A stretch of 64,000 nucleotides of DNA from contig BDDD01000355.1 in NCBI GenBank assembly GCA_001972305.1, positions 186,001 through 250,000 of the forward strand, in the 5' to 3' direction. The first letter of the stretch is position 1; each line of letters begins with the position of its first letter. Position numbers and translations under genes: made by a program. The DNA is from Cephalotus follicularis. Taxonomy: Eukaryota; Streptophyta; Magnoliopsida; Oxalidales; Cephalotaceae. This document shows, piece after piece, positions 1,568 through 60,907 of this stretch. Under the pieces are notes generated by a model. The model worked only from the letters and a program-made list of their open reading frames with translations, was not told where the DNA came from and made no database searches.

Positions 1568-2748
1568 TGTTGACTTTTTAGTCTCAATCATAAGTTTTAA
1601 TGATTACAAATTTGCATTTAACATGTTTACTTAATGTGCAAGATATTAGAAAGCTTCACATAAGGCAAAATATCAGCTGCAAGCAAAAGACATCGACCTC
1701 TAGTGCAAAAGACATCGACGCCTTTGATCTAGAAAAGTTATAGGCCACTTTAAGTGAAAGACATCGATCCCTTTCAACAAAGACATTGACGTCTTTAGTG
1801 CCCAAAGTTACAGGTCAGATTTTAGTGAAGACATCGATCCATACAAGCAAAGACATCGACGTCCGTACCAAAGACATCGATCCCTTTCCTAAGACATCGG
1901 CGTCTTTCTAGACCAATCTGCCAAAGCCAGAAAAGACATCGACCCATGAAGAAGAAGTTGATGTGATGCTCATATATTCAAATGCCTGGACAGATTCCCA
2001 GCAAAGACATCGACGCCTATAAAAAGACATCGACGTCTTTTTAAATGGATTGACCCGAGAAACATGGAACGGCTAGTAAACGCACTTGCAACGGCTAGCA
2101 ACTATCAAAGACATCGACGCCTTTCTAAAGACATCAACGTCTTTATGTCAGCAGAGACAAAAACAAAGTTGCATCAACACATTTTTATATCCAAAATGCC
2201 CAAGACTTTTGCAACGGCTATAATCTCAAGAAAGCTATCTAAAGAGGCCAAGAAACAAGATTTGAGATGACTTGAATAACTTTTTGATCATCTAACATCC
2301 AAGCTCAAACTTGCACAACTACAAGAGAAAGACATCAAGCTTTTGTTTACACTTTCATATCCAACCTTCAAGAGGTTATTGAAAACACAAATCAATCCTT
2401 TTCTATCTTTCATTGTAAAAGAGGGGAGTGAACCCTTGTAAGGTGTTTTATTTATTTACACCCGGAACCCAAAATCAAGTGTAAGGTGGTTTGCTTTGAT
2501 TTGCACCCGTAAGCCGAAAATCAAAGGTTGCTAGTGGATTCTAGTGGAAACTCAAGGGGTTCTTGAGAAAGTGGACGTAGGCACGGATTTTACCGAACCA
2601 CTATAAATTCGTTTGCACACTCTCTATCCCTTATCTTTTACTTACAATTGTATTATTTGTTCTTGTGTGCTTGTTTAGCTTCATAGTTTAAATTTGTTTA
2701 TTCCGCAAACAATTTTCTTATTAAAGGTTGCCATACCATTCCCAACAA
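1568..2748 (+). repeat. LTR of Copia element A, 3' end truncated
   Basis: It starts with TGTTGAC directly after the polypurine tract. Its first 75 bp match the LTR start at 46967 apart from a few substitutions. It contains the palindromic word array at 1687-2146. It then continues with sequence like that downstream of the array in the 39241-39887 LTR remnant (AACGGCTA, GTAAAAGAGG, CCGAACCACT). The expected LTR end (CA followed by a TGGTATCAGAGC site) is absent. At about 2748 the sequence switches to the end of the Gypsy LTR described next. Confidence 0.75.
1687..2146. repeat. Array of about 13 dyad words, GACATCGACGTC type
   Basis: About 13 copies of AAAGACATCGAYGTCTTT-like words occur in 460 bp, often as pairs about 20 bp apart. 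Examples start near 1708, 1757, 1778, 1827, 1848, 1870, 1890, 2002, 2022, 2107 and 2127. The ideal form AAAGACATCGATGTCTTT is its own reverse complement. A longer unit (AAGTTAYAGG, spacer, GAAGACATCGATCC, spacer, word) repeats at about 1733 and 1806. Variants such as ATTGACGTC and ATCAACGTC look like CG to TG/CA changes. Confidence 0.9.
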
Positions 2749-2813
2749 TTTCCATTAACAAATCAAAACCCTCCACGTAGGGTACTATTGAAGGAAGGTT
2801 TTCTGCATCAACA

Positions 2814-2833
2814 TTTGGCGCCAACTGTGGGAA
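2814..2833 (+). other. Primer binding site of Gypsy element B
   Basis: TTTGGCGCCAACTGTGGGAA directly follows the LTR end ATCAACA. TGGCGCC-type primer sites next to the 5' LTR are typical of Tat/Athila Gypsy elements. I did not match it to a particular tRNA. Confidence 0.75.
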
Positions 2834-2858
2834 ACGCGGCAAAAAGTCATCAAGAATC

Positions 2859-10007: not shown

Positions 10008-12592
10008 TGTCACACCCCGCCTTACCATTTCCAATTAGGCACAAGCATATATGGTGATATCAGGATTAAATGTAATATTCCAGCATTCCATTCAACAATT
10101 CATAACATAATATGCGGAAGCATTCAATAAGCCGGAATATAAAATACAAGTCATCCGCACGCAGCCCATACTACGTGCAGGTATAATCCAACAAATTATC
10201 CTTTAAGGAAAGTACAACAGTGACACGGGGTATGAACCGTTCATTACAATTACAGTACATCAACATAAAATAATAACCTTATGGTAGAAAGAAGCTCTCT
10301 CCAAAAGCTTCAGCAGCAATCTCCGAAATCTTCGCTTAATCTGAAATTGTAGGGGTTAGCCGTTGTCCTCACTTGGCTAAGTAGGAAGATAAAGCATGTA
10401 ATTGAATCTATAAATATAAATATGCATGACAGTTAAAATTAAATGATATACATATATATATATATATATGTATTGTTCCAATATATACGCAACCATGCCA
10501 AGTGGCCAAGACAATACAAATGCAAGAATACCGCACAAGGGTACAATCAATCAGTACAGTGGTTTGGATGTCACATGTCGCTAACTCCTAGCACCAACTG
10601 TGCACCACCTATCTATCACCCTACACTCCGAAGATGATAGATAAGGTAACATTTACTACCGGCGTTAGCGGACAGTTTAACAATCAAGCTCTGCATTACA
10701 GGCAGTTTTGGTGTGTACTCTAGCCAACTCCTGGCACATAGGACCACCTCCGTTAGCCAGTGACATCTGCCATCACTCGACTAATCGGCAATAACAAAGA
10801 CAATCAATTCAATCAATTCAGGTCAATAATCATATTACATATATATATAATATGCAATATAAAAGTTGTTTTCTTTAGAAATATTTAACAATTCATTGAT
10901 CGTACATCTCATTGGAGGGAAACGATATCAATACAATAGTGGTTCCCAGTTGGAGAACAAAACAGTAGCAGTGCCTCTAATGAGGGAAAATAGCAGTTTA
11001 TATGACATTAAGATTTTTCATAAGAAAACCGAAAAATCATTATTTATGTTTAAAACATTAGGTTGGGGAAATCCTCGAATATGTAATCATAACAGGAGAG
11101 ATTTCATCCAATAACAGTAATAATAGTTGCATTATATCAGATCAAGGGTAATTGCAACCACAAACAATTCAATCGATCAATTTGCAAATTTCTACACCTA
11201 CTGTTATAAAGCGTCGACAGTTACTATGTAAGCGTCGACGGTTAATGACTAGGCGTCGCCACTACAAAATTTAAGCGTCGACTTCTAGGCCTTAATATGC
11301 TATTAACGCACCAAAGCGTCGACAATGTCTGTGTAAGCGTCGGCGCTTCTGGCATTCATACGAATTCCAGGAGCAATTCCAAAACAAGGGATGCACAAAA
11401 TCAATCCAAACTCAGTCTAATTCAACATGCAATCAAATATTGACCATCACAACATATTATACATGTTATATGTTCAAAAACATGTCAAAATCCCCTACCT
11501 TTAAGCAGTCCCGAAATCAAATCAAATTGACTTCTCTCCTTAAGTCCAAAGTTCTTCACTTTCCTTCAATCTTCCCAAAATTGCAGAATTAATCTACATA
11601 ATTGCATGTTTACAGGTCTTAGATACGAATCCAGTACGTTAAGCTAGTTATATAACCATGACAACATCCAGGAATTGAATCAGAAGTTTGATATTTAACT
11701 CCTAAGTTCAACTTTCTAATTTCTTAGCTAATACAACATTCAATCTTCTCTTCCATGCTTTATCCTTCATAATCATGTTAACAGTGGCAGTGTGATGCTA
11801 ACATCAGGGTATTACATCACTAACGACCTTAACAACATAAAGAAATTTCGGATTACTTACCAATTCCAGGTGGTGCTCCAAGTCTTCCCCCTTTGAACTT
11901 CAAGCTCCTTCAACCTCTAGCAATCTTCCAACAAATATCCAGGTTGTCTCTCAATCTCTCAGTGTTTTCTAACTCTCTCATCCAACCTCTCACAACTGGT
12001 ATAAAAGGTCATCGGTGTGTCCTTCATTTCGCCAGATTCTCCATCCTTCAATCCACATTTCTCTCTCCCTCATGCATGCACTCTTCATTTTGTTTCTTTC
12101 ATGTTTTCTGGCAGGTTGTGCAGGTGGAAGGAGACATGCAAGGCCCTTAGTCTGGTATTAACAATAGCTGGCAACGCCTCTTTTGCATGGCTAACACGTC
12201 TATGGACACATGCCCGCACACCCACCATTTTACTCTGCCATATCACTCAAACTGACACCTATCTTTGCGCCAGAACACGACTAAAGCGTCGCCGGTTTAA
12301 TTGTGGGCGTCGACGCTTATACGCCTCTAAGTGTCGATGCTGGGCGTTTAAAGGTCGACGGTTGGCGCCTTATTTCAGTCTTCAACTGTGCGTATTGTGC
12401 ACGTGTTAGGGCTTAAAGCGTCGACGGTGTGACTTTAGGCGTCGACGTTTTGGCACCCGAAATCATTTCTTTAGTTTTCCATTTCAGAATTGTATTCCAA
12501 CTTCATTCATTTAAAAAAAAGTAACAACATAACACCTCAAAAGTATATTTTATTCATCGAATGTTACATGAATCGAAATTGCGGTTATTACA
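10008..12592 (-). mobile_element. Solo LTR C (Gypsy, Tekay-like), TSD ATAAG
   Basis: This 2585-bp block begins TGTCACACCCCGCC and ends GGTTATTACA. It is flanked by perfect 5-bp duplications ATAAG at 10003-10007 and 12593-12597. No gag or pol lies inside, so it is a solo LTR left by recombination between two LTRs. The stretch GGGGTTAGCCGTTGTCCTC resembles the LTR of element D (GGGGTTAGCC), which places it in the same broad family in minus orientation. It holds two clusters of GCGTCGACGC words. Confidence 0.9.
11211..12450. repeat. Two clusters of AGCGTCGACGCT-type dyad words in solo LTR C
   Basis: The first cluster (11211-11347) has about six copies: GCGTCGACAG, AGCGTCGACGG, AGGCGTCGCC, AAGCGTCGACTT, AAAGCGTCGAC and AAGCGTCGGCGCTT. 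The second (12282-12450) has about six more, including GGCGTCGACGCTTA at 12306. The consensus AAGCGTCGACGCTT is a perfect palindrome. Spacing is irregular at about 20-25 bp. Confidence 0.9.
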
Positions 12593-13096: not shown

Positions 13097-13706
13097 TAGA
13101 ATTGCAAGCGGTCCGGGACGGTCGGAACCGTGGCTCGGGCCGTTCGGGACCGGCGAAATACAATCCGATTCATAAATTGGCCCCTTTTCTCACTGTCCGG
13201 GCTGATCCGGTTCATAGAGCTAAAAAGTGAGAACCGAACCGGTCCGTGAACCTTAACTGTAAGCGAGGCGGGTTGGTCCGGGCTGGTTCAGTTCATTATT
13301 CACGTTAACGCGTATGAATAGCTTTGACGCGAATGCCATTTGTGTTGACTCAATTTGCCTTATGCGTTAACGTCCAAGTCATTGTCTGGTTTTTGCATCT
13401 TTTGGCGTTGACGTCTTCATATTGGCGTTGACGCCAATTAGTGTAGTAGTTGACGAGGATCATCTTGAATCTTAGAATTGATATTCTAGCCCTGCACGTT
13501 GACGTTAATAGCCTAGGTGTTGACGCCAATAGCACGGTTCACGGTCCGATCCAACTGTTCCTAGCATTCTGAAGCGACATGGACCACTCTCAAATGTCAG
13601 TTTAACCACGGATCTGTCACATGGTGTAAGGTCTGGACCGATTGAAAGACCACACGGATCGGTTCGAGCCAGTTTCACGATTTGAACCGGCTCACTTATA
13701 ACTCTA
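13097..13706. mobile_element. Non-autonomous hAT-type element, 610 bp
   Basis: The ends are imperfect terminal inverted repeats: left TAGAATTGCAAGCGG, and right TAGAGTTATAAGTG when read from the other strand. The flanks are ATCTCCAC (13089-13096) and ATCTCCGC (13707-13714), an 8-bp duplication with one mismatch. An 8-bp duplication and subterminal copies of CGGTTCGG and GGACCGG-type words are hallmarks of hAT elements. There is no transposase frame, so an autonomous relative would be needed for movement. The centre carries a TTGACG word array. Confidence 0.75.
13322..13531. repeat. Cluster of GGCGTTGACGCC-type words inside the hAT element
   Basis: About eight copies lie in 210 bp: TTGACGCG (13324), GCGTTAACGTC (13364), GGCGTTGACGTC (13404), TTGGCGTTGACGCCAA (near 13423), GTTGACGAG, ACGTTGACGTTAAT and GTGTTGACGCCAAT (13517). 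The centre TTGA/TCAA is one transition from TCGA. The same words are found in the Copia LTR at 60241-61572. Confidence 0.85.
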
Positions 13707-13714
13707 ATCTCCGC

Positions 13715-15589: not shown

Positions 15590-15635
<46 letters not shown>

Positions 15636-16017: not shown

Positions 16018-18633
16018 TGTAACACACTGCGCCCGCAGGGCGGACATGTGGTATTACTCTCAATCCAATACACAATACAATCGTCGGGACTAGCAATATA
16101 AAAATGCGGAAAACTTTAAAACTTTGCAATACATAACATTTGCGGAAGATACAATACAATGATCCATTCATACGATGCAATACAATACAAATCCTTTTAC
16201 AATACTAGTCTTTTACAATATCATTATCAATCTTTCAATACAACATTTCAATCCTTCACTACACTAACCCACAACCAGTTCTGCAATACCCAAGCAGTCG
16301 TGCAATCACAACGAGTCTTCAATCCTTCTGTCCACTGCCACCTGCTGCCCTACCTATGCCGCACACAAGGTACAACACAGCCCCACCCCGAAGGATGGGG
16401 TTAGCCACACTGGCTAAGTAGAAACCTCATGCAGCATGAATGCATGTACAGTGTGCAATATCGGTGACAATTTATGCAATAACAATGTGCGGTGTACAAT
16501 ATCAATGCATGACATGGTAAATACATATGTACAGTTGGAGATCAGACTACCTGTATGACAATTGCCCATAACAGAGCATACGGATAGGATCTATAACAAT
16601 CAATCAATGGCAGACACTCAGTGGTGGTGTATCAAACAGCCAATCAATCAATCGATATCCTATAGAGCATGTGACCTCGGGTCAATACAATGTCAATCAA
16701 TAGCAATGATCAATCCCACGGAAGGTAGTCCTTCAAAAAAGGTGGGAGATCTATCTACTGCTCTCAGACTGATCAGGTCTGGAACTCGTAGATCTTCCAG
16801 CCTACGGCTGGGTCAATACAATCTCGATGAGCTACAACCGAGGGAGCTACTGATACCGTTAGGGAGCTACGACCCTCAAGGGAGCATCAATCGACAATCA
16901 ATCAATAGGCTCAACCGTTAGGGAGCAACGATCAATACCGCTCGTCAGCAGGTCAATACAATACAATAAATGAAACGATCGACATAATAGGTGGACTGAG
17001 TCAACAACCTAACATGCCGACACGAATCATCAGGTCGCTCTATAGGATTCATACAATACAATCAATCATGTCAGTACAATATCATTACAATGTCAATAAA
17101 CAAAGTCAATGAGTGGTGGTGTCTAATGGAGAAATGGGAACATGCGTCCATTTTACCGACTTAGACTCGCAGGAACACTTATGACTCAAGCAATCGATCA
17201 CTGTATCAATACAATGTCGAAGCAAAGCCAATAAGTGGTGGTGTCTAATGGAGAAATGGGAACGTGCGTCCATTTTACCGACTTAGACTCACAACAACAC
17301 TTATGACTCAACAATCAATCAATCAATCAGTAACCGCTAGGCGGTGACAATCGAATCAACGAAATAGGAATGAACATCTATTTGGTCAATGAAAGTCACT
17401 GGGTCGTCACCTATGACTCAATTTGTCACTCTATCAATTTATCAATTCGATCTTTGAAAACCATTGAAAATTGTGTTTTAAACGCTTGAATACCTCAAGT
17501 GAGGCTCCGGTCAAGCGGCAATGTGAAAAGGGTTGAAAAACCAGCTTTAACAGTTAAAAACTCCACTCAGCCCGAAAGGCGTCAATGTCCTTGGCCAAAG
17601 ACATCGATGCGTATCAGGGCATGCCTTTAAAAATGGTAGAAGGACGTCGATGTCTTTGAAAGACATCGATGTCCTTCTCAATTTGGCCGAAGACGTCGAT
17701 GTCCTTGGACAAAGACATCGACGCATTTTAATAAAAATGGCCTGGGAATGCGTATCGATGTCTCGCGTCGATGCCTTCTTTGGGGAAAGGCATCTCAAGA
17801 AAAAGACGTCGATGTCTTTGAAAGACATCGATGTCTTTGCTGCAAAATCAAGGAGGCTGCATCCCAAAGCGAAAGACATCGATGTCCATGGGCAAGGGGA
17901 TCAATGTCTTTACTGGGAATGGCTGATTTTTCTGTAGAAAACCAGCAATTTTCAAGCCAAACTCCAATCAAAACCCATTCTTTAAAAAATCAAGGGTTAA
18001 AATCAATCTTTAAGGTTAGTAAAACTAGTTACAACCTTCAATTTAACATCTCAATCTTTCTATTTACAATTTGGTCAAGGATTTGCTAAAAACCCTAAAA
18101 ACCATCAATTCATTCAATACACTCAATTCAATCATTGAATACAATCAATTCAATTCAATCACTCAATAAAAGCAATAGGCAATTCGGTAAGAAGTCCTAC
18201 CTATCATTGAAGCTTCAAACGTTGAGCTTCCAATCAATCGATCGGCAGAAATCGCCCAATAACCCGCTACTTTCTTGTTCAATCGGCAACCCACAACTTG
18301 CAATTGGTATCCTTGTTGAAGGAGATGCAATCCAGCTGCTAGGGAGATGGAGGGAGGTTGCCAGCGAGAGAGAGAGAGGGAGCGAGATAGAGAGAGGGAG
18401 AAGAATGAAAGAATGAGAGGATGAGAGTAAGAAATTGACTTATATAGTCAATTCGACCAACTCTCCGAAACTCAGCCCAGAATCCAAACTATACATGCAT
18501 AAAACCAATATAATATCGATAGGTATAGGAATACCTCAATTCAATACAATACAATATGGTCCAATACAGTACAATACGGTACAATACGGTACAATGTATG
18601 CATGAACAGTACCAAAGGGAATTCGGGTCGTCA
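16018..18633 (-). repeat. 3' LTR of element D
   Basis: It starts TGTAACACACTGCGCCCGC and ends GGGTCGTCA. The copy at 23853 has the same start except for an A/C difference and ends GGGTCGTTACA. It is about 136 bp longer than the other LTR, mainly because a block of about 122 bp is present twice (near 17111-17190 and 17234-17310: GAGTGGTGGTGTCTAATGG and relatives). It carries the palindromic word array at 17577-17915 and a GA-rich tract near 18365-18425. Confidence 0.9.
17577..17915. repeat. Array of about 12 GACATCGATGTC words, LTR of element D
   Basis: There are twelve copies in 340 bp. Two are perfect or near-perfect 18-bp palindromes, AAAGACATCGATGTCTTT (17821) and AAAGACGTCGATGTCTTT (17802). 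Others include AAAGACATCGATGTCCTT (17659) and GAAGACGTCGATGTCCTT (17689). The word is the same as in the Copia LTRs at 1568 and 46967, although the two elements belong to different superfamilies. Confidence 0.92.
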
Positions 18634-23852: not shown

Positions 23853-26332
23853 TGTAACACCCTGCGCCCGCAGGGCGGACATGTGGCATTACTCTCAATC
23901 CAATACACAATACAATGGTCGGGACTAGCAATATAAAAATGCGAAAAACCTTAAAACTTTGCAATACATATCATTTACGGAAGATACAATACAATGATCT
24001 ATTCATACGATGCAATACAATACAAATCCTTTACAATACTAGTCTTTTACAATATCATTATCAATCTTTCAATACAGCATTTCAATCCTTCATTACAGTA
24101 ACCCACAACCAGCTCTGCAATACCCAAGCAGTCGTGCAATCACAACGAGTCTTCAATCCTTCTGTCCGCTGCCACCTACTGCCCTACCTATGCCACACAC
24201 AAGGTACAACACAGCCCCACCCCAAAGGATGGGGTTAGCCACACTGGCTAAGTAGAAACCTCATGCAGCATGTATGCATGTACAGTGTGCAATATCGGTA
24301 ACAATCTATGCAATAACAATGTGCGGTGTACAATATCAATGCATGACATGGTAAATACATATGTACAGTTAGAGATCAGACTACCTGTATGACAATGGCC
24401 TATAACAGAGCATACGGATAGGATCTATAACAATCAATCAATGGCAGACACTCAGTGGTGGTGTATCAAACACCCAATCAATAAATCGATATCCTATAGA
24501 GCATGCGACCTCGGGTCAATACAATGTCAATCAATAGCAATGATCAATCCCACGGAAGGTAGTCCTTCAAAAAAGGTGGGAGATCTATCTACTGCTCTCA
24601 GACTGATCAGGTCTGGAACTCGTAGATCTTCCAGCCTATGGCTGGGTCAATACAATCTCAATGAGCTACAACCGAGGGAGCTACTGATACCGTTAGGGAG
24701 CTACGACTCTCAAGGGAGCATCAATCGACAATCAATTAATAGGCTCAACCATTAGGGAGCAACAATCAATATCGCTCGTCAGCAGGTCAATACAATACAA
24801 TAAATGAAACGATCGACATAATAGGTGGATTGAGTCAACAACCTAACATGCAGACACGAATCATCAGGTCGCTCTATAGGATTCATACAATACAATCAAT
24901 CATGTGATCACTGTATCAATACAACATTGAAGCAAAGCCAATAAGTGGTGGTGTCTATTGGAGAAATGGGAACGTGCGTCCATTTTACCGACTTAGACTC
25001 ACAAAACGACTTATGACTCAATAATCAATCAATCAATCAGTCAATCAATCAATTAGTAACCGCTAAGCGGTGACAACCGAATCGACGGAATAGGAATGAA
25101 CATCTATTTGGTCAATGAAAGTCACTGAGTCGTCACCTATCGCTCAAGTTATCACTCTATCAATTTATCAATTCGATCTTCGAAAACCATTGAAAACTGT
25201 GTTTTAAACGCTTGAATACCTCAAGTAAGGCTCAGGTTAATTGGCAATGTGAAAAGGGTTGAAAAACCAGCTTTAACAGTTAAAAACTCCACTTAGCCCG
25301 AAAGGCGTCGATGTCCTTAGCCAAAGACATCGATACGTATCAGGGCATGCCTTTAAAAATGGTAGAAGGACATCGATGTCTTTAAAAGACATCGATGTCC
25401 TTCTCAATTTGGCCGAAGACGTTGATGTCCTTGGACAAAGACGTCGACGCATTTCAATAAAAATGGCCTGGGAATGCACATCGATGTCTCGCGTTGATGC
25501 CTTCTCTGGGGAAAGGCATCTCAAGAAAAAGACGTCGATGTCTTTGAAAGACATTGATGTCTTTGCTGTGAAATCAAGGAGGCTGCATCCCAAAGCGAAA
25601 GACATCGATGTCCATGGGCAAGGGGATCAATGTCTTTGCTGGGAATGACCGATTTTTCTGCAGAAAACCAGCAATTTTCAAGCCAAAATCCAACCAAAAC
25701 CATTCTTTAAGAAATCAAGGGTTAAAATCAATCTTTAAGGTTAGTAAAACTAGTTACAACCTTCAATTTAACATTTCAATCTTTCTATTTACAATTTGGT
25801 CAAGGATTTGCTAAAAACCCTAAAAACCCCCAATTCATTCAATACACTCAATTCAATCATTCAATACAATCAATTCAATTCAATCACTCAATAAAAGCAG
25901 TAGGCAATTCGGTAAGAAGTTCTACCTATCACTGAAGCTTCAAAAGTTGAGCTTCCAATCAATCGATCGGCAGAAATCGCCCAATAACCCACTACTTTCT
26001 TGTTCAATCGGCAGTCGACAACTTGCAATTGGTATCCTTGTTGAAGGAGATGCAATCCAGCTGCTAGGGAGATGGAGGGAGGCTGCCAGCAAGAGAGAGA
26101 GAGGGAGAAGAATGAAAGAATGAGAGGATGAGAGTGAGAAATTGACTTATATAGTCAATTCGACCAACTCTCTGAAACTCAGCCCGGAATCCCGAGTATA
26201 CGTGCATAAAACCAATACAATATCGATAGGTATAGGAATACCTCAATTCAATACAATACAATATAGTCCGATACAGTACAATACAGTACAATGTATGCAT
26301 GAACAGTTCCAAAGGGAATTCGGGTCGTTACA
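23853..26332 (-). repeat. 5' LTR of element D
   Basis: This is the 2480-bp partner of the LTR at 16018, from TGTAACACCCTGCGCCC to GGGTCGTTACA. It has a single copy of the 122-bp block that is doubled in the other LTR. Its array of GACATCGATGTC words lies at 25302-25640. Confidence 0.9.
25302..25640. repeat. GACATCGATGTC word array, second LTR of element D
   Basis: It has the same 12 positions as the array at 17577-17915, with single-base differences: GAAGACGTTGATGTCC against GACGTCGATGTCC, AAAGACATTGATGTCTTT against ACATCGATG, and GCGTTGATGCC against GCGTCGATGCC. Several changes between the two LTRs are CG to TG or CA inside the core. Confidence 0.92.
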
Positions 26333-31290: not shown

Positions 31291-32712
31291 ATATGGGAAA
31301 ATTTCTAGACAAAGAAGGCACTGACACGTGTCCTTTGGCACACAAACACATGGGCAAAACGCCCAGGATTGTGGTAGTAATGGAGAGTTAACTCCTCCAA
31401 TCAAAGATGAGGAAACGCCTGACGTTTCCAAGGGACCAATAACTCCTTCATGATGATGAGCAATTTCTTAGCATAAAAATATGTTGTTTTTAAGGATTTA
31501 ATTATTATGTTTTTATGCTTGGAATAGATTACGGCGGTTGTATTGTATTGATTTTCAAGTATAAGGGCAAAATGATCAAAGTGCATCAATACTCGTTCAA
31601 TTGGCAAAAAATTAAGAGACTAAAACTTCAGTTTTGCAGAATTTGCATCAAAGCACTGACGGGTTCACACAAAGCGTCGACGCTTAGATATAAAACGCTG
31701 GCGATTTTAAAGAAAGCATCGACGCTTAAGAGTTGCTCTTCACCAAACTACATGCTCTTCAAGTTTGCTCCGTTTTATCAAGTCTACTTTAGTCTTACCA
31801 ACTTCTCGACTCTGCTAATGGAATTTCATAGTCTGCTCTGCCCCATTACCATCACCGCAAGTCTACACCTCAAAGTCTACCCCGCTATATTCAGACATGC
31901 TCTACAAAGTGGTGCTCGACGAGTCTACATTTCAAGTCTGCTTGGCATCTCTACTTAGTTGCTAGCTTGCTAGTCTGCAAGGTTGGTTCTCTGCTAAGTT
32001 GGTGCTCTGCTAGTCTACTAGTCTGCCAGTCTGCCACTTTGCTGCTTTGCCATTTTGCTAGTCTAATCTTCAATTGTTATGAGGTCTGCCTTTGCTTGTC
32101 TCAAGTATGCTCTGCCAGGTTGTGCTCTACATTGATATAGATAGTCTACTGGTCTGACACTTTGCTTTCAACTCTCACGAGGTCTCTACTGTCAAAGCTA
32201 AAACAAAATTGTGTTAAGCAGCGACGCTTAAAATGATACCGTCGACGCTTAACCATTCAAGTGCCATTTGTTATATGCGAATGCCAGCGATTTGGTTCAA
32301 TGTAGAGTCTGCCTTTCCTGTTTTGTTAATTCATTATTTGGATGCTTTAATTTATGTAAAGTCTTAATTCTGCCCGCATAAGCGTCGATGCCTTGTGATA
32401 TAGTGTCGACGCCTTCAACGTTTTCAGTGTTTTTGATTATTCTCATCGACGCTTAACGTCGACACTTTTAGCGTTTTTTCGTCATAAACGTTGATGCCTT
32501 CATTCATAGCGTCGACACTTACAACGCTTGTTCAACCAGTTAGTTATTTTTGCATGTTTAGGATTAGAAATCAATAATCAATTTCAAGATCGCATACTTC
32601 GTCAAGGTTGAATAAATTGAAATTAGTTTAACTTGTTTCCTAGTGTTTGACCCGTTACTGCACAATCGTGCACTTGCGGTATAAATTTAATCCTTTTCAA
32701 AATTCGTGAACA
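31290..32712 (+). repeat. 5' LTR of Athila-like element F (start approximate)
   Basis: The end is set by GTGAACA at 32706-32712, just before the PBS. The start is taken at the loss of pararetrovirus similarity near 31290, where a TG is present but no duplication is visible. The LTR contains many CTCTGC/GTCTGC-type short words (31730-32170). It has AAGCGTCGACGCTT-like words at 31674-31730 and 32218-32527. Confidence 0.55.
31674..32527. repeat. AAGCGTCGACGCTT-type dyad words in the Athila-like LTR
   Basis: About eleven copies. Examples are AAAGCGTCGACGCTTA (31672), AAAGCATCGACGCTTAA (31713), GCAGCGACGCTTAA (32218), ACCGTCGACGCTTAA (32239), TAAGCGTCGATGCC (32389), AGTGTCGACGCC (32402), CATCGACGCTTAACGTCGACAC (32444) and AGCGTCGACACTT (32508). 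The same consensus occurs in solo LTR C, a Tekay-like LTR, not an Athila relative. Confidence 0.88.
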
Positions 32713-37057: not shown

Positions 37058-37260
37058 CGACTGTTACAGAGCACCAGCCTACTGGGAAAGCTTGGCAGTC
37101 GACTAGTCACAATGGCCAGTCGACTACTCAAACCAGAATGCAGGCAGTCGACTGTCACTTAGATCCAGTCGACTACACAACCCAAGACAGTTGACTGTGT
37201 TCATATGGCAGTCGACTGTTCATCCAATCCAGCCGACTGTCCACAAGAACAGCCGACTAT
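37058..37260. repeat. Array of about 10 CAGTCGACTG words, 3' LTR of element G
   Basis: Ten copies in 200 bp: CAGTCGACTAG (37096), CAGTCGACTAC (37117), GCAGTCGACTGT (37144), CCAGTCGACTAC (37166), CAGTTGACTGTG (37188), GCAGTCGACTGTT (37209), CAGCCGACTGTC (37230), and others at 37058, 37074 and 37249. CAGTCGACTG is a perfect palindrome. Spacing is 16-27 bp. Confidence 0.93.
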
Positions 37261-44448: not shown

Positions 44449-44966
44449 AAGTTTTTATTGAGATGTTAAGAACAGTGTATTAACTGAATACGAGTTCTCT
44501 AACACAAACTCAGGAAAATGTACGTTATGTAATCTTTATCTTTACAGAAACAATGGATATCTCGGCCAAGGTTGTTAAACAGGAAAACATAACAGAGGTT
44601 TCCAATGCAAAGGAGGCAGAAATCCAAAGGTTCAATATTTATCCGCAAACAATGGGCAGTATACGAACCTTGTAGGTGATAGCTCCATGGTTGCTAAAGA
44701 GAAACCACTGTGGATGTTTTGTTCTTTTAAATACAACTTCGGAAACCATGGGTTCAACGAAACCCAGGNNNNNNNNNNNNNNNNNNNNNNNNNGATCTTA
44801 TGTTCATTTATCACTTCTACCCTATTCTGAGCAATTTCAAAATTTTTTCTCTCTGATTTTTTCTTTCAAAAATCATTCTACTATTTCGAAAAACATCTTC
44901 TAAACCCGTTTTCAACATCAAAAACTCTTTGCGTCTCCTCCAATCCGCCTGTTTTTATCACTCTTT
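44449..44966. other. Unassigned stretch with assembly gap
   Basis: After gag the text is unlike Copia pol on either strand. The short frame starting near 44552 (MDISAKVVKQENITEVSNAK) is not recognised and ends after about 40 codons. Ns fill 44769-44793 and their true length is unknown. From 44794 the sequence leads into the next frame. Pol could have been lost here or may lie in the gap. Confidence 0.5.
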
Positions 44967-45002
44967 GTGTCTGTCTCTTGTGCACACCAACTGTTTGTAA
45001 AA

Positions 45003-46317
45003 ATGGTTAGATCAAAGTTTGCTGCCAAAAAGAAGGGTTCTTCATCCTCTCAGCCACCGAAATCTGCTAAAAAGCAGAGGCTTGAGGTTAGAGAGCCTTC
45101 CCCCGACCCTGCTCTCCAATCGGATTCCGAATCCGAAGAGCAAGTGCCTTTGAGAAATGTTGCTTTTGTGGACAAAAGGGTTATGGGAGGCAGAAATATC
45201 GATTTGGATTTCTGTTCTTCCGAGTTTTCTTTTGTGTCTTGGTTAGATGATCTCCATCTCCTCACTCTTGTTCAAATTTCTGACCCTTTTTACATCAAAT
45301 TGGTCAAGGAATTTTATTCAAACCTTCGAATGGTTTCAAGCCCCAATGAGGAATTTGCACTGTCCTCATCTGTTAAAGGGGAGAGAATTTATCTAAATGC
45401 TAGGATTTTGGCCTCTATCTTACATATTCCACATACCGATTTATATGTTTTTGAACACAAAAAATGGCCGGAGGTTGAGTGTTTTCACCCTAACCAAATT
45501 TTGTCTCTTTTGTACCCAAATGATCCAAATGTTCATCCAAATATGGCACTGACCACCAATAGATTATCAGTGGACCATAGGCTTCTCCACCATCTTATTG
45601 TACATCAAATTCTACCCACCGGTGGAGGGTATGCAAAGTTGTCTGGGATGCAAGTTTTTCTCATGTGGTGCATCCTTTCCAAAATTCAGTTTTGTTTTCC
45701 TCTCCTCATGCTCAAGACTATGGTAAGAGCATTCTCACAAAAGAAATCAGTTCTACCTTTTGGCTCTATTCTTACCAAAGTTTTCCAACATTGTCATATT
45801 CGGCTAGAAGGAGTGATAGCAACGAAATTGAAGAAATAAGACACGTACAACAAGAGTACTTTGAATCGGATGGGGTGAAAAAAGCAAGAAGGAATATGGA
45901 CTTATTGCCCCAAAATTGATCAAGTGCAAAGAATTGCAAGGGAAGAGCAAGAAGACAATCCTCCTTGGGAAGCACATGAAGAATCTGCACCTGCTCAGCC
46001 TCAAGCTCAAGGAACCTCATCCTCTACTGATTATGACAGGGTGATGGAGTTCATGCGTTCTCAATTTGCTTCCATGCAAGCCTCGCTCGAAGATAAATTT
46101 GAGCAAGTCAACACGCGGCTCACTAGATTGGAGAACGATCATAAAATACTTCATTCCGACTTCGAAAATGTTGATGACACCATCTACTACGATCTAAAAG
46201 TCCTTAAGAGGCGTCTCAAAAGAATGGAATGAAAACTTGCCGATTCCAAGACTATTGATCGTTGCGAAGAGACTTCGGGCGATGAATCCGATTCCGATGC
46301 CCCTCCTCCTGCTGCCT
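45003..46317 (+). pseudogene. Env-like / 'putative plant transposon protein' frame of Copia B2
   Basis: One frame from the ATG at 45003 (MVRSKFAAKKKGSSSSQ) to 46317, with stops at 45837-45839, 45876-45878 and 46230-46232. The basic, serine-rich start is followed by a domain with FVSWLDDLHLL, KEFYSNLRMV, GERIYLNARILASILHIP, NRLSVDHRLLHHLIVHQIL and VLPFGSILTKVF. This resembles the plant-specific Transposase_32-like family (PF20167). A coiled-coil tail (FASMQASLEDKFEQVNTRL) and an acidic end follow. Its place between pol and the 3' LTR is where SIRE-type Copia elements carry their extra 'env-like' gene. Function unproven. Confidence 0.7.
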
Positions 46318-46966: not shown

Positions 46967-47310
46967 TGTTGACGATTTAGTCTCAATCTTAGTTTTGATG
47001 ATAACACTATTTACATTTGACAAGTTTACTTGATGTGCAAGAAATTACAAGTTCAATACCAAAGCAAAAATACCATATGCAGAAGAAGACATCGACTTTC
47101 AAGGAATAACATCGACGTCCGTACAGAAAGACATCGACTCATTTAAAGAAGACATCGACGCCTTTCATGCCAGAAGTTACAGGACAATTTCGAGTGATGA
47201 CATCGATGCTTTTCAGTAAAGACATCGACGTCCGTACGAAATAAGTCGATCCCTATCTTAAAGACATCGACGACTTTATGTGCCAAAGTTACAGGACAAT
47301 TTCGAGTGAT
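46967..47310 (+). repeat. 5' part of 3' LTR, Copia B2, with word array
   Basis: It starts TGTTGACGATTTAGTC after the polypurine tract. Eight GACATCGACGTC-type words lie at 47086-47275, and the phrase GTTACAGGACAATTTCGAGTGAT occurs twice (47176 and 47289), giving a unit of about 113 bp. It ends inside the second copy, where element G's sequence (CTGACGGAACACAC) begins. The remaining LTR is lost. Confidence 0.88.
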
Positions 47311-50702: not shown

Positions 50703-50707
50703 CAATC

Positions 50708-53404
50708 TGTAACACCCCAGGACGGCGGGAGTCATCACAGGTCATAATACAGAACCTATCATAACATATCTAAACAAAAACATAACATATCAGCCAAAAA
50801 CGTGGCGGTCATAGCATAACTGAAAACTTAAAAACTTAACAATTTCTGAAAACTTAAACATATTCCAGTTCAAAACTAAAACATATGTATCTTATTGTTC
50901 ATGACCACTTAAAAAGAAAACATAACGGGATCACACTCCTAGGGATCCAAAATATAACATGGTCATCTCTCGTTCACACATTCCCCCGCTGCTCCTGATA
51001 ACCTGCCGCATGGAAAACAAAAACGCGGCTGAGCAAACCTCAGTACGGATAAGGAAAGAAAAAGCAGTAAACGTTAAGTTTCAAAGCAGTAAGATTTCAA
51101 TAAAATTCATAACAGAAATCTTAAGCAATTAAAAACAATTAAACATTCGTAAAGTCACATTTGTACTTTCATAAAATCTATATAACTTTTGAAACATTTC
51201 AAAACATCATATCACGATTCATAAGTCATACTGAGCCACATACATATCACATAACATATATTTGGCAAGGGAGGCGCTAATTCCACATGCCCACTAGAAT
51301 TGAAGTGTACGGCACAGCACAAGTCAATTCTCACATATCACATATCATATACTAGAATCGATTCATACTCCTCAATCACATAGCGGATCCATAAATCCAC
51401 CTCATGGGATTTATTCATAACACTCAAAGACGCCGTAGACTAATCACACTGCTACGGAAGTGTCATGTCCCCGTGTCAGGCCTACGACATGCCTATGGTA
51501 CGCCCCATAGGTGGGTACAATACTCAGTATTCAATCATTTAGAAAACATCGATTTATCAAAATTAATTTAAAACACATAAATATGCTTCCAGAAAACATA
51601 TTTGAAAGTCGTTCACAACGATATCATAACGTACATTTCATAGTCAAAACATCAACTCATTTATTTTTCGTAATAAAGAGATGATCATTTCGTAACATAT
51701 CATAACGTATCGTAGCATAAAAATAAAGTCAGGAATATTTAAATTCATAAAATGTCAAAAACCAACTTTATTTCTGAAACATATCATAAAACATAACCAA
51801 GTCTATAAAACGAGAACATAGAATAAAACTGATTTTAGTTCGATAATCAGATAGCCAAGGAACGGTAGAAATTCGTACCTTTTTGCGTTCACAAAACTCT
51901 TACGAAAAGATTGTTCACTCAACTCCCTTTGAAGCACAGCAATCTAAAAGCCACCCAAAACCATTCATATAAGGGTCTAAGAAACATTAAAGACATTAAA
52001 TAGACTTATTACAGTGTTTAGAAAAGACCCGAATTGATTCGAAGAACAAATGGAGCAAAACAGTTGAAAACAGAAATTTTTCTGGGCAAAACAGCCGACT
52101 GTTACAGAGCACCAGCCGACTGAGAAAGCTTGGCAGTCGACTAGTCACAATGGCCAGTCGACTACTCAAACCAGAATGCAGGCAGTCGACTGTTACTTAG
52201 ATCCAGTCGACTACACAACCCAAGAGAGTTGACTGTGTTCATATGGCAGTCGACTGTTCATGCAATCCAGCCAACTGTCCACAAGAACAGCCGACTATTC
52301 TGGACGACAGAACAACAAAAACTTGATAATTTCATACAGAAGCTGGTTCAAATGATTACCACATTAAACCAGGAACACAAGGGCATAAACATATGACATT
52401 ATATGACATTTAGATGATACATAAACACATAATTGACAGGGAAAAAGATGGACGGTGGCTTCCAAGGAAAACAGTAACTCTCTAAGCATATGCCCATGTT
52501 CAAGTCTAATTTCTGTCCTTTATCACTTAACATATATTTAAAACCAGATTATGACATGTGTAGGTGTATAAAACATGCTGACATGCTTAGGAATACAATG
52601 ACAAAACATATAGGCAGGAATCAAAACCAAAGGACACTAAGAGCACAAAACCGAAATACAAGGTAAAAGAAACCATGACAGTTTGGTTACCAACCTGCAG
52701 TGATCATCAAGAACACGGGAAACAGTAGAAGGACACCACACTTCACTTGTCAAACGGCTGTACAAAAAGGAGGGCAAGAGAACAAAACAAAGAGTACATA
52801 ACATGCTTAACAAACCAAAGGGATTCTTAAAGACAAAGGAAGATTAAGATTACCTCTGTAACGATTTCACAAGGATCAACAAACTCCAATAATGCAAAAA
52901 TTCGGCAGTGGCTTTGCAGAAAAGAGAGGCGACATATAAAATGAAAATATCTCTCACCAAAAGGTAAAAGAGGAGACAAAATCTGGTCACATATGGAAGA
53001 AGAGAGGATTTTCAGACAACTAGAAAGGAAAGAAAGATTGTTACCGTGTGAATTGATGAGGGGAGGAGTGAGTTCGGGAGAAAGAGAGGGAAGAATAAGA
53101 AAGAAAGAAAGAAAAAGGAAAGAAAATAAAAAGGAAAAGAAAAATAAATAAAATAAATAAAATAAAAGGATTTTAAAATAAAAGGAATTGTTTTAATAAA
53201 ATAAAATTTTGATTAAATAAAATAAAAACCCAAACCCAACATTGCATTATCACATCCAAAAATTTAGGCTGATATCAGACAGCCCAAATCACATAGGCCC
53301 AAAACATAGGGAAACCGGACTTTAAGATTAACAAAATTAAAAAGCCCGAAAACAAACACATAAAAAGTCCGTAAAACACATTTACAAACAGACAGGGTAT
53401 TACA
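50708..53404 (-). repeat. 5' LTR of element G
   Basis: This is the partner of 35676-38372, with equal length (2697 bp). Differences are mostly single bases and short gaps (AACACCCCAGGACGGCGGG against AACACCCCCGGACGACGAG at the start). The CAGTCGACTG array lies at 52091-52299. A/G-rich tract near 53090-53150. Confidence 0.92.
52091..52299. repeat. Array of CAGTCGACTG words, 5' LTR of element G
   Basis: The ten word positions match those of 37058-37260. Differences include AGCCGACTG for ACCGACTG (52093), AGCCGACTGAG for AGCCTACTGGG (52113) and CAGCCAACTGTC for CAGCCGACTGTC (52268). The last is a CG to CA change. Confidence 0.92.
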
Positions 53405-53855: not shown

Positions 53856-56695
53856 TGTAATACCCCGTTCGTTCACGTGCATATTTCGGATTTTAAAATT
53901 TGATTTATTGGTTGTGTTGGCATATTTTAATTTGGCATAATGTGTTCTTTGGTTTATGTGATTATAAACTAGGGCTTCTCATATTTATTAGAATATGATT
54001 GTTGAAAAAGCAAAAATTTATTGTTTTGTTATTATCTTGGTCCATTTTAAAATTTTATTTGGACTTTTATGTTTTGGGCTTTATAATACCAATTATATTG
54101 CCTTTGGATAATTGATAAAATATAATTGTAGATAAGTGGTATATGTATACTATACCTCCTTGTTGTGCCTCCATTGTTTATCTATCTCCTGGTAGCCGAA
54201 CCTGTAAGTTTGGAGACTGTTTTGTGCTTTTTTGTTCATCATATCAGGTTTGTTTCTCTATTGTTATGGTTTAACTTGGGTGTTGGTTGCTTGTCTATGT
54301 TGGTTGCTAGTGTGGTTTGTTTGATTTCTTCAACCATGGCTACTGGACCTGTCAACATGCATTAGGTAGATGATACATACTGGTTTTGATTAAGGATAAT
54401 GATTAATGACAGAAAACTTGATCATATAAGCATGCATGCAATAAATTGAAATTGCTTCTCCTTAAAGAAAGACCACCCATTGCATGAACTTTTGATTATG
54501 GATGATTAAATGTAACTGTTAAGTCATATAAGACCTAGGTAAGTGTTTAAGGTTATCTGGAAAAGTAATAAAAACGATTTTGACAGAAAATTGGCATAGG
54601 TTTGTTAGATTTTGGCTGTTTTGTCGCCCAGAACAGTCGGCTGCCTTATGAAACAGTCGACTGTTTTGCCTTGCACAGTCGACTGGACCCCTGTCACAGT
54701 CGACTGGATTCAACCCAGTTTGAGTAGTTAGCTGCCGATGTTGTGTAGTCGACTGCCACCCTATGAGTAGTCGACTGGATCTTGATACAGTCGACTAGAA
54801 TTGTCCAGTGAATTTTCTGGTTTTAAGTTTTGTGATCCGTTTGTTTGTCTAATGATTTGGAGTCTGTTTTAAACACTACTAAATTACTGTTTGATATTTG
54901 GAAGTGATATTTGAATGCTTATATGAATGATATTGCATCTTCGAGGGACTTTTAAATTATTGATCAATTCGTCTATATTTGTTGTGATCGCTTAAGGTAC
55001 GGATGTTTTGTTCCTTGATACCCTCCTACTGTTTTTATTATGGTAAAAAGATAGTTTTACTCTATGAATAACGTATGGATTTTATGTTCTTTGGCTATCT
55101 GATTTTATTGAAACTGTCCCATTTCACTTTTTATGATTAAAGTACGGATTTTTTGTTCCTCGATATACTCTGATGATTTTATTAAAATAAATCAGTTATA
55201 TGTTTTTTTTATGAAAATGTACCAATTCTTCGTTCTTGGTTTCTTCCTTTGGTTTTACTGAAATGAATTCAAATGTGATTCCTATTGTTTTATGAACCTA
55301 GCTATGTTTATGATTCGATACGATTTTGAAAATAAAAGTCAGTTGACATTTTGTGAAATTGATGTTCATGACTTTATTCTTATGCTATGATATGTTAAGA
55401 AATATGATACGATCATCTCTTTATAGTTGAAAATAAATGAGTTGATGCTATGTAATGATTTTGCTATGTCCAGAAAATGTTTAGAAAACGTGTTTACATT
55501 TTTAAATCATTTTTAGATATAAAACAATGTTTTTGAAATAAGGATACACACAGAGATATTTCCTACCTATGGAGGTACCATAGGCACGTCGTGGGCCTGG
55601 CACGGGGACGTGACACTTCCGTAGCAGTGTGATTCAACTACGACGTCTCTCTTTGTTTTGAATAAGTCCCATGAGGTGGACTTATGGATCCGATTTTGTG
55701 ATAGAGGTGTATGGGTATACTCTAGTTTTTGATATGTTATGGATTCGGATTTTGGGGATTGATTGTGTAGTGCCGTACACGTCTTTCCGTTTGGCATGTG
55801 GGCCTTGCAAACCCCTTGCAACTTCGCATATGTGTATGCGCTTTGGATCTTGGAAATGAGATTTTGGAATCGGATAAGTCTCTGTGATATGTTTGGATCT
55901 CTATGATGAGATTATGGAATCAGATAAGTTTTTATTTTAAAATCTTTAACTTGGTTGACGTTAAAGTAATTCGAACGTTTGATTTGGATACTATTTTGAA
56001 CTTGGATTATGTTTTGAAATTGAATAACGCTTTGAAAATTAGATATTCGTTTTGAATTGATTGTATGACTACTTACTTTCGCTTTTGAAAATCATATTAA
56101 TTATTTTATGTACAAGGTATATGATATTTAAAGGTTCAGGTATTTTCTATCTTTTAAATTATCATTTTATGTTTTATGATTCTATATCCGTACTGAGGTT
56201 TGCTCAGCCGCGTTTTTGTTTTCATGCGGTAGGTATTCTGGGACAGCATCCGGGCAATGTGTGATGAGCGAGATGTCACCTATGATAAGGACCACCTAGG
56301 AGATGGAACCATTTATGCTTAGTTATTTTATGGTAATGTTATGACCCCTTAAAACTATGTTATGCCTTTCAATTTATGACTTAGAATTTTGTTTAAGCTT
56401 TTGGTTTATGTTTAACCTTCCAGATTATGTTTAAGTTTTATATTATGAATAAAGTTGCTAGACTATGTCTTAGATTATATTTGTTATGTTTAGACCATCA
56501 CGCAATTTGAATAAAAGATGAGTTAAAATTTTGATAGTAAAAACAAAGGCGAACCTTGATTTATGGTTAAATAGGAATACAAGCTAAGTAATAAATTGAT
56601 AAAAAGGAATAAAAATCGAGTTATATTTCATGATAGGTTATGTTTTGTCTCGGATTAGGAACCGTAACGACTCCCTCCGAATCGGGGGTGTTACA
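53856..56695 (+). mobile_element. Solo LTR H inside the RT of element F, TSD GCAAT
   Basis: This 2840-bp block starts TGTAATACCCCGTTCG and ends CGGGGGTGTTACA. It is flanked by perfect GCAAT copies at 53851-53855 and 56696-56700. Read on the other strand it starts TGTAACACCCCCG like the LTRs of element G, so it is a related family in the opposite orientation (GTACTGAGGTTTGCTCAGCC near 56189). It has nine CAGTCGACTG words at 54633-54797 and a TATATGAA box at 54920-54927. No coding region. Confidence 0.93.
54633..54797. repeat. Array of about 9 CAGTCGACTG words in solo LTR H
   Basis: ACAGTCGGCTGCC (54633), ACAGTCGACTGTTT (54653), ACAGTCGACTGG (54675 and 54697), GTAGTTAGCTGCC, GTAGTCGACTGCC (54746), GTAGTCGACTGG (54767) and ACAGTCGACTAG (54788). 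The array ends about 120 bp upstream of TATATGAA. Confidence 0.92.
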
Positions 56696-56700
56696 GCAAT

Positions 56701-58940: not shown

Positions 58941-60240
58941 TCATATTCGATAAACCCTACCCCAATTGTTCTTTTATTTATTGCATTGTTTCACATATAA
59001 TTCCTTGATGATTCAATGTTATTTTTATAGTCGATTTTTAGTGCACTGTGGACAATACAAAGTTTAAGATAGGTTAGGGGTATCCCTGTATGCCACGATA
59101 TGGATTGTTGGTTGTACATATAAACTCTTAATTAATACAATTTTGAATTTCATTCATATTTTATGTGCATATTTTGTTATTGGCAAGGCTATGTGGCTCA
59201 TCCCAACCAACCAAAAGGAACAAAATAATTATACGTAATTAACTGTATGTCATGCCACATCAAAGGGTTGGATCTCATGCTGAGAGGGCTATGAGAATGA
59301 GATCCTTACTCCCTGTGACAAATGTTCCAAGTCATAGGTTCACTTTCTTTGGGCCATTGATGAAGCACGAAGACCTCTCACGTTAAGCTTGCTCCCGGGT
59401 TAGCAGTGGAGGATAGTTATCTCGTAGAGATTTGGGTTTATCCTTAAAGCTAAATGTGAGGTATATGCTGGAGAGCATGACACTGAACAGACCCACCAAT
59501 AGGAAACATATTTGGATAGTGAATACCCAATGTCAATTGGATTCCTATGGTGTCGGTAGTGTATAGTCTATGGTTACTAGTAGGTCTATAGCTTGCGTTG
59601 TCTCCTTTGACCTGAGCGGCTGGCATGCATTGTGTGGTGACTATTTGACTTTGATTTTTGCCTTCCCCAACACTAGCCAGGTGCTGGCAAAAGGGTTGTC
59701 TTTGTGCCTTGTGGGAGCTGCATTCAGATGTATGGGCGAGTGCGCAATAGGGGATCGTCACACCCGGGCTGAGGGTGACCGGCTTTATTTATCTATGTAC
59801 GTTGCAGACTCAAAAGTCCTGATCAGGCATAGGTGGACTGGGAAAGAGAGGTTCCCGTGGGAGGTCTACCGATAGTCTCAGTGCGATCATAGATTCATAG
59901 TTATCGCAGCAATACTAGGGGTGACATTCATCCAAACCCTAGGCTGTGATCGGAGCCAAGTATGACGAGGGAAACATGCCGATGAATGGATAGAGCAACT
60001 CGCTATTCAGTTCATGATTGATAAACATAGTAAAACACGGATCCGGGGGGCGACTGGCACTCATACTGGGTCTGTTTTGATAGTTGGTGACTATCAGAAT
60101 AATCGTACCAGATATCGAGGTGTACTGGGAATTTATCATCATACGGAAGATCAACAGGTTTTTGGGTCCTGCCTGACTTTGAACAGGTTGATATGTAGTG
60201 GGACACATATCATTTAGTGAAAGGACAACATCAAGGAAGA
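58941..60240. other. 3' region of element F, unassigned
   Basis: After the integrase an AT-rich stretch leads to ACAATACAAAGTTTAAGATAGG (59053), a phrase usual just after Athila pol. From about 59200 the text is more GC-balanced, but no frame on either strand has motifs that I recognise. A third gene or a 3' LTR would be expected here; neither is evident. It ends at the start of the Copia LTR at 60241. Confidence 0.5.
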
Positions 60241-60358
60241 TGTTGCTTTGCTAGTGAGTATTTCATTTGATGGATTTAGGTCCATGCAATGCCACGATGA
60301 AATATTCCATGCGAAGGGTTTTAAAAAAATAGAAGAGATTGTTTCATCTTTGTCTTGG

Positions 60359-60907
60359 GCGTCGACAGCATGGGTGTGCGTTGACACCATGTGTAGTTGA
60401 GTTGCTGGGCGTTAACGTCATGGAGAGCATACATTGATGCTGACAAAACCAGTAGCTTAAACGTCGACTCCATGGAGAACATGCGTCGACGCCGTAACTA
60501 GAAAAAGTCGCTGGGTGTTAACGCTATGGAGAGCATGCGTTGACGCTGATAAAACCAGTAGCTTTACGCGTTGACGCTATTGTGTTCATGGCATTGATGC
60601 AAAGACAAATTTGAATCAATGCTTGTTTCATCCTATCGTTGGCGTTGACGCCTATATAAGATGAGAAGCATGGCGTTGACGCCATGATAGGTTGATGCGC
60701 GGGTCTTGCCAAATTTGAGAGAAATTGGCTTGACTTTTTAGGATAAAGTGGAGAGAGAAAGTCAACACTATAAATAGCTTTAGAGAAGCTTGTTGAACAC
60801 ACTTGAGGCTTGACTCTTTCTCTCTCTTCCTCTCTCTTCCCTACCATGCATTCTCTTCTTGCTACAATCGTATGCGTCGACGCCTATCGCATACGCGTCG
60901 ACGCCAA
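60359..60907. repeat. Array of about 14 GGCGTTGACGCC / GCGTCGACGCC words
   Basis: GCGTCGACAGCATGG (60359), GCGTTGACACCATG (60378), GCGTTAACGTCATGG (60409), AACGTCGACTCCATGG (60459), GCGTCGACGCCGTA (60483), GTGTTAACGCTATGG (60515), GCGTTGACGCTG (60538), GCGTTGACGCTATTG (60568), GGCGTTGACGCCTAT (60640), GGCGTTGACGCCATG (60672), then GCGTCGACGCCTATCGC (60874) and GCGTCGACGCCAAT (60895). Many share a following CATGG. Most copies sit 85 bp or more upstream of the TATA box; two are downstream. Confidence 0.92.
60768..60777 (+). promoter_or_regulatory. TATA box in Copia J LTR
   Basis: CTATAAATAG, about 85 bp after the last upstream word (60672-60685). A CT-rich stretch follows (60810-60842), common at plant transcription starts. 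Confidence 0.6.

Follow-up and report, generated by a model that had tools for sequence, protein, structure and literature searches.

Dyad-word arrays in retrotransposons and a hAT element

The 64,000-nt stretch of Cephalotus follicularis contig BDDD01000355.1 analyzed here (the window) carries Copia and Gypsy retrotransposons, a non-autonomous hAT element, and an envelope-like (ENV-like) open reading frame (ORF) matching Pfam family PF20167. Arrays of dyad-symmetric words centered on TCGA occur in the long terminal repeats (LTRs) of the Copia and Gypsy elements and inside the hAT element, and these arrays are real. Further stretches of the same genome are labeled L001, L002, etc., and arrays a0, a4, etc.; words were also counted genome-wide in the 1.58-Gb assembly. 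An array was defined by at least 4 words, and the class of a word is that of the nearest consensus, some words being intermediate. L001 was left out of all statistics. The pattern-chosen L002 to L005 were left out of the palindromic 10-mer enrichment, the comparison of arrays with shuffles, and the distance control on TCGA tetramers, and L003 to L005 out of the counts of word centers (CCGA, TTGA, and TCAA).

We scanned for 12-mers that recur locally (within 400 bp, at most 2 mismatches, either strand), blind to the words. Of the window clusters with a count of at least 6, 14 in all, 11 were of these words, among them the seven ranked first. Twenty 10-kb stretches taken by position gave 36 such clusters, of which 27 were of this type and 9 were not. 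The window contained 12 arrays, against 0 in 50 dinucleotide shuffles, and the stretches taken by position (250 kb) contained 36 arrays, found in 16 of 30 stretches, against 0 in 15 shuffles. Among the palindromic 10-mers of 314 kb, 22 were seen four or more times, and the most enriched of them, (AT)n aside, were GCGTCGACGC (20 seen versus 0.01 expected), CAGTCGACTG (24 versus 0.12), ACGTCGACGT (7 versus 0.03), and ACATCGATGT (11 versus 0.25), closely followed by GACACGTGTC (4 versus 0.09). With all arms summed, the TCGA core was seen 85 times against 14.5 expected (5.9-fold), while the next core, AT-repeat cores aside, was TGCA (1.27-fold). Genome-wide, GACATCGATGTC had 18,133 sites (39 for the reversed control), AAGCGTCGACGCTT had 18,108 (15 for the reversed control), and GGCGTTGACGCC had 3,208 forward and 3,168 reverse (13 and 10 for the reversed controls). 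A chance origin of the arrays is ruled out by the 12-mer scan, the palindrome enrichment, and the shuffle counts, in agreement with an earlier claim, made from the letters of the window (the original prediction), that the words stand far above chance. A protein search with the translated Gypsy D array gave no match, and the word pattern was found in one viral contig only, phage-like by eye and with three tandem copies, which we take as chance.

The original prediction had described at least eight elements holding clusters of 7 to 14 words with a TCGA center. The clusters exist and the words are present, but not everywhere as exact copies, and by the criteria of our script the window arrays have 5 to 14 words (5 per cluster in the C, hAT, and Athila-like arrays; the L016 arrays have 17 to 18). 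Because A and B2, the two D LTRs, and G and H are related copies, the window holds about seven independent cases. The TCGA core is enriched, but the words of Copia J and the hAT element are often centered on TTGA. The identification of the 610-bp element as hAT was supported by its imperfect terminal inverted repeat (TIR) and its 8-bp target site duplication (TSD) with one mismatch. The 14 words of Copia A lie about 120 to 580 bp into an LTR whose end, near 2749, was judged by eye. Of the 12 window arrays, only that of Copia J was followed by a strict TATA[AT]A at a distance of up to 100 bp. The Athila label is that of the original prediction, and all that was seen at this LTR is a protease ORF downstream. 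The features are listed in Table 1.

Table 1. Word arrays, their carriers, and PF20167 ORFs (positions in the window unless a stretch is named)
Feature	Position	Strand	Remarks
Copia A (Sirevirus-type) LTR array	1687..2146	+	14 GAC-class words (AAAGACATCGAYGYCTTT); LTR starts about 1568
LTR C array 1	11211..11350		AGC-class words
LTR C array 2	12300..12450		AGC-class words; 970 bp from array 1
Non-autonomous hAT element	13097..13706		610 bp; imperfect TIR from TAGARTTRYAAGYG; 8-bp TSD, 7/8 identical
Array within hAT element	13322..13531		GGC-class (GGCGTTGACGCC)
Gypsy D LTR array, copy 1	17577..17915		GAC-class, 12 words
Gypsy D LTR array, copy 2	25302..25640		GAC-class, 12 words; RVT_1 between both D LTRs
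Athila-like LTR	31670..32530		AGC-class words; array of 5 at 32386-32513
Gypsy G 3' LTR array	37058..37260		CAG-class; element on minus strand
ENV-like ORF (stop-to-stop frame), PF20167 "Transposase_32"	44904..45836	+	Candidate VANC-like DNA-binding protein (see below)
Copia B2 (Sirevirus-type) LTR array	47086..47275	+	GAC-class; LTR starts about 46967
Gypsy G 5' LTR array	52091..52299		CAG-class
LTR H array	54633..54797		CAG-class
Copia J LTR array	60359..60690	+	GGC-class; TATAAATA about 90 bp downstream
Copia J, two more GGC-class words	60871..60907	+	Downstream of TATA box
Other PF20167 ORFs	L016:5710-6681; L023:2410-3708; L006:9183-9998

Several other segments of these elements were seen. 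A lone GAC-class word lies in about 98 bp (39243-39340) that are 82% identical to 2127-2223 of LTR A, apparently a piece of an older LTR. The segment 18849-19427, adjoining Gypsy D, matches 56051-56701 near LTR H in inverted orientation (76 to 79% identity) and resembles the end of the G LTR; it is probably a further LTR fragment. In the first D LTR, about 130 bp are directly duplicated (87%) at 17080-17332, and 25 N are located inside the Sirevirus-type element B2 (44769-44793). The hAT element has another copy at L014:9614-9950, which is diverged (71 to 75% identity), lies in reverse orientation, and carries GGC-class words too.

Word classes, helical phasing, and conservation

Profiles of non-redundant sites gave four classes of words, all with an RTCGAY core or a near variant: GAC (AAAGACGTCGACGTCTTT, with information to about 9 bp on each side of the center), AGC (AAGC-type; AAAGCGTCGACGCTT, about 7 bp), GGC (GGCGTCGACGCC, 5 to 8 bp), and CAG (CAGTCGACTG, 5 bp). 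In CAG-class arrays, 31 of 79 words had a CCGA center, which breaks the perfect dyad (seen in L006, L023, L025, and the window at 37058-37260), and in GGC-class arrays the center was TTGA in 29 of 63 words and TCAA in 11. Hybrid words combining an AGC arm with a GAC arm also exist (e.g., L023:1697), and the L016 array preceding a PF20167 frame, with arms AAAAACGTCGACTTCTTT, is GAC-like by nearest class only.

As originally predicted, elements of unrelated classes have words in common: GAC in Copia and Gypsy, AGC in Gypsy and Copia, and GGC in Copia and hAT. Assignments of coding regions to arrays are by neighborhood and are tentative, above all for Copia J and the single loci. GAC words are carried by the Sirevirus-type Copia A and B2 (the LTR family of A adjoins RVT_2 and PF20167 ORFs in L016), by Gypsy D, and by the L021 arrays a40 and a41, which are flanked by a chromodomain ORF and an RVP_2/RVT_1 ORF. 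AGC words are carried by Gypsy C, whose family of LTRs adjoins a Gypsy RVP_2/RVT_1 ORF in L012, by the Athila-like LTR, and by L013 a23. The presence of AGC words in Copia is based on the flank of a23, in which stretches of 80 to 114 bp are 82 to 89% identical to Sirevirus-type LTR flanks, and on a neighboring RVT_2 ORF. The carriers of GGC words are the hAT element and Copia J, to which a copia gag at 63292-63630 is tied by neighborhood; those of CAG words are Gypsy G, H, L018 (with a chromodomain ORF nearby), and an L006 array before a PF20167 ORF. The words of A, B2, and D, predicted to be one and the same, are all of GAC type, but the exact GACATCGATGTC occurs in Gypsy D only (6 sites), A and B2 carrying the less symmetric AAAGACATCGACGYCTTT. 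Copying of array DNA between elements was rejected: window self-comparisons gave no match of the A/B2 arrays to the D arrays.

The clusters had been called irregular, which proved wrong: their spacing tracks the helical turn, a phasing that the original prediction had missed. New here is that word centers recur in phase with the helix, with a period of about 10.2 bp (one turn) that persists up to distances of about 120 bp. The main tests used one array per flank family, keeping 15 of the 52 arrays; the families are single-linkage clusters, in which some distinct families are lumped. Gaps of 19 to 22 bp made up 205 of the 375 neighboring gaps in the 52 arrays and 62 of 111 in the 15 families. 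In the latter, the distances between all pairs of words peaked near 20.5, 31, 41.5, 51, 62, 71, 82, 91.5, 102-105, 112, and 122 bp, with a best period of 10.20 bp (family bootstrap, 10.15 to 10.30; R = 0.47), while random placements with the same spans (n = 500) gave an R of at most 0.17. When gaps of <25 bp were dropped, R at 10.5 bp was 0.44, while the highest null value out of 5,000 was 0.42. Odd helical multiples accounted for 69 of 260 and even ones for 75 of 260 (within 1.5 bp), with 116 outside. A consensus-free control, the distances among all TCGA tetramers, gave 10.20 bp (R = 0.253), while for nine other palindromic tetramers R at 10.2 bp was 0.11 to 0.12 (ACGT, CTAG, and GTAC) or below 0.10 (the other six). 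The period was clear in the GAC, GGC, and CAG classes (R = 0.55 to 0.62; GGC from 20 pairs only) and weak in AGC (R = 0.27 at 10.7 bp).

The all-pairs periodicity implies that the words tend to face the same side of the double helix for about ten turns. There is uncertainty in the exact pitch, since neighboring gaps alone gave a period of 10.5 to 10.6 bp and single classes 10.2 to 10.7 bp. The helical pitch is 10.2 bp on the nucleosome and 10.5 bp in free DNA, and there is a hint that the observed 10.20 bp is closer to the nucleosomal one. A literature search did not find the phasing described in titles or abstract openings, the subscription literature being mostly outside its reach, so that absence from print is not shown; a search with the words themselves returned an HIV paper only.

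Also new is that class differs between homologous LTR segments and that neighboring arrays tend to agree. L013 (AGC) and L023 (GAC and hybrids) have arrays at the same place in a flank of 748 bp that is 83% identical, and L017 (GGC/AGC) and L020 (GAC) belong to the same homologous set. Likewise, the flanks of C (AGC) and L025 (CAG) match over 227 bp (79%), and those of L002 (GAC) and L022 (GGC/AGC) over 642 bp (79%). Among arrays of one locus lying 150 to 2000 bp apart, class agreed in 10 of 14 pairs, not all independent because C and L012 are one family, versus 3.3 in label shuffles (P = 0.0004). The four disagreeing pairs were C with the hAT element (2) and one each in L006 and L018, both taken to be different elements. 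Related LTRs can carry different words, as had been proposed, but the claimed uncoupling of word type from ancestry goes too far, since close copies keep their word and differences are seen only among more diverged relatives.

We compared 23 same-class pairs of arrays, which share members and are not independent; 18 of them had a flank identity of <0.8. Both core and arms were better conserved than the spacers in 16 of these 18 diverged pairs, the exceptions being a28/a30 (all three about 0.97) and a7/a35 (spacers above words), and better than the flanks in 16 of 18 (exceptions, a0/a8 and a8/a28). Identities of core, arms, spacer, and flank were, respectively, 0.93, 0.84, 0.74, and 0.61 in a0/a28; 0.81, 0.81, 0.43, and 0.56 in a7/a50; and 0.92, 0.86, 0.74, and 0.64 in a4/a33. 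The five close pairs (a4/a5, a4/a51, a7/a9, a25/a26, and a37/a39; flank, >0.9) showed no consistent excess of words, the core being below the flank in four of them. Such a pattern would be expected if active lineages need the words while inserted copies decay freely. Since transposable elements keep and rebuild these easily lost sites, a role that benefits the element would be likelier than a host tag.

A proposed trans-acting factor and its rivals

From these observations we infer binding, benefit, and a factor: the words probably form phased operator arrays that are bound in trans by a dimeric factor, to the advantage of the element. The arrays would be cis-acting operator platforms, in which each dyad word would be recognized by a dimer of a sequence-specific DNA-binding protein. 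Phasing near 10.2 bp would hold several words on one face of the helix, where bound dimers could act together. The arrays would be maintained because they serve the element, by activation or by an escape from silencing, and not by the host. We propose that Copia, Gypsy, and hAT elements share words because one factor family acts in trans on every word-bearing element, and that whole arrays switch class together because the factor or its targets diverged. The candidate factor is the PF20167 ORF of Sirevirus-type elements, possibly VANC-like, with Gypsy and hAT elements as putative free riders; the main alternative would be a host transcription factor (TF) family.

Of the four PF20167 ORFs, those of the window and L016 form one group and those of L023 and L006 another, with only about 20% identity between the groups. 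Because this gene is retrotransposon-borne, the transposase name given by Pfam is probably misleading. For the window ORF, the best 120 of 450 matches were all C. follicularis proteins, with identities of up to 95%. TCGA arrays are found beside three of the four ORFs, ending 112 bp (L016), 28 bp (L006), and 0.6 kb (L023) upstream of the open frame, and none precedes the window frame.

If the factor is a host one, the arrays may be enhancers in which unrelated elements converged on the putative sites of one TF family, for tissue or stress drive, the classes then corresponding to paralogous TFs. This is a serious possibility, if short of an even one. It fits the location of the arrays in LTRs, that of J just upstream of a TATA box, as well as the dyad symmetry and the helical phasing, and the published RM boxes, clustered palindromes of Sirevirus LTRs, are likewise found upstream of TATA boxes and are similar to the sites of stress TFs (PMC2829016). 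A fixed TF does not, however, predict a class shared by whole and neighboring arrays yet differing among related LTRs. It is more doubtful that a VANC-like system operates, in which the Sirevirus PF20167 protein would bind the arrays and remove silencing marks and Gypsy and hAT elements would be free riders. VANC proteins are the element-encoded binding proteins of sequence-specific anti-silencing in the VANDAL elements of Arabidopsis (PMC5735166, PMC10398659), and one PF20167 model had VANC21 as its best structural match. Arrays precede the frame and are also present in the LTRs at these loci, a basic N terminus is seen in part of the relatives, a C-terminal coiled coil is predicted, and the class changes resemble those of VANDAL targets (PMC5735166). 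Several results weigh against this and against PF20167 as a VANC-like candidate. The model was of low confidence, its Z was within the range of chance matches, and it was unreplicated, VANC21 being absent among the 16 matches listed for a second model. No sequence homology to VANC was found, and the 8 matches from a sequence comparison with the PDB were weak and confined to the coiled-coil part. The protein has a hydrophobic segment, and the L006 and L023 proteins are 60% identical over 245 residues, yet their upstream arrays are CAG and GAC-like, respectively. Slightly less likely still is the complete scheme, in which PF20167 would be a VANC-type anti-silencing protein ending in a coiled coil and not an envelope, the RM boxes its phased targets, and Gypsy, other Copia, and hAT elements would ride in trans, with a class code that is genome-wide. 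If the PF20167 link is true, it would explain the extra gene of Sireviruses, reveal a second VANC-like anti-silencing lineage, and provide a case of transposons parasitizing each other's counter-defense.

Another explanation is that transcripts of the palindromes form hairpins that supply small-RNA silencing. This has been proposed for the Sireviruses of maize, and palindrome-rich Sirevirus LTR regions have been linked with small RNAs (PMC5311732, PMC10760457). The hairpin model is improbable, because phasing by the duplex turn, odd multiples included, has no role in an RNA hairpin and instead points to a protein on duplex DNA; words retained between lineages would, moreover, then be harmful to the element. 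If word-bearing units of about 21 bp had multiplied neutrally, by tandem duplication and conversion, this would account for the many 19- to 22-bp gaps, and VANC targets have been proposed to evolve by tandem-repeat turnover (PMC5735166). Neutral repetition of a 21-bp unit is, however, disfavored by the many odd helical multiples, and the sharing of words across superfamilies and their better conservation than the spacers between lineages also oppose it; homogenization of spacers within arrays was judged by eye only. We rate it a little below the hairpins. Lowest of all stands rotational positioning of nucleosomes, in which the words would be anchors or surface-exposed sites. The all-pairs period and its bootstrap range speak for such wrapping, but the values from neighboring gaps and single classes leave the pitch uncertain, and positioning needs neither specific dyads of 16 to 18 bp nor classes. 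It could also be combined with protein binding.

Comparison with known systems

The original prediction knew of no described system that matches the arrays, but Sirevirus LTRs hold clustered palindromic RM boxes (Bousios et al. 2010, PMC2829016), two of which have a TCGA center (Tnd-1, ACAATCGATTGT, and Vitis, CGGTCGACCG). These boxes are present in at least 8 dyad copies, mostly in the upper half of the LTR, with extras upstream of the ENV-like gene; a CGG-CCG core is common to all of them except Tnd-1, and they are described as specific to Sireviruses (PMC2829016). Copia A, with its words clustered in the upper LTR half, and the larger L016 arrays resemble them, as do the extra copies upstream of the ENV-like gene at three of the four PF20167 frames. 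Unlike the RM boxes, the words have an RTCGAY core or a near variant and also occur in Gypsy elements (identified by RVT_1 or chromodomain), Copia J, and hAT. Helical phasing and the difference in class between related LTRs further distinguish them from the RM boxes as described.

A maize Copia palindrome, CACCGGACNNNGTCCGGTG, is also found in Helitrons and has been read as an RNA structure tied to small RNAs (PMC10760457). As here, one palindrome is common to different superfamilies within one genome, although the accessible text of that report describes neither phasing nor class switching. The LTRs of Del (Tekay-type) elements have plastic CpG islands, a variable CpG-rich stretch in the 5' half (PMC4029996). 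This likeness to the arrays concerns chromovirus LTRs, but dyad words are not reported for Del in what is accessible of that study, in which the cluster holding all eudicot Del elements examined has no such islands (PMC4029996).

VANDAL elements share with the arrays dense non-coding clusters of short words that differ between related elements and whose units change together. The VANC21 word, YAGTATTAY, is non-palindromic, in a single orientation, and rare in other transposable elements (PMC5735166), whereas the words described here are palindromic and common to several superfamilies. VANDALs are DNA transposons, and VANC has DUF1985, which was not detected in the four PF20167 ORFs at E values of up to 10, in a search whose HMMER filters drop most matches above 0.1. 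In the way they would work, the arrays resemble both RM boxes and VANC, but because the RM-box core and the restriction to Sireviruses do not apply and DUF1985 was not found, we place them under neither. Compared with the RM boxes, an oddity of one retrotransposon genus becomes a genome-wide cis code common to unrelated types of transposons.

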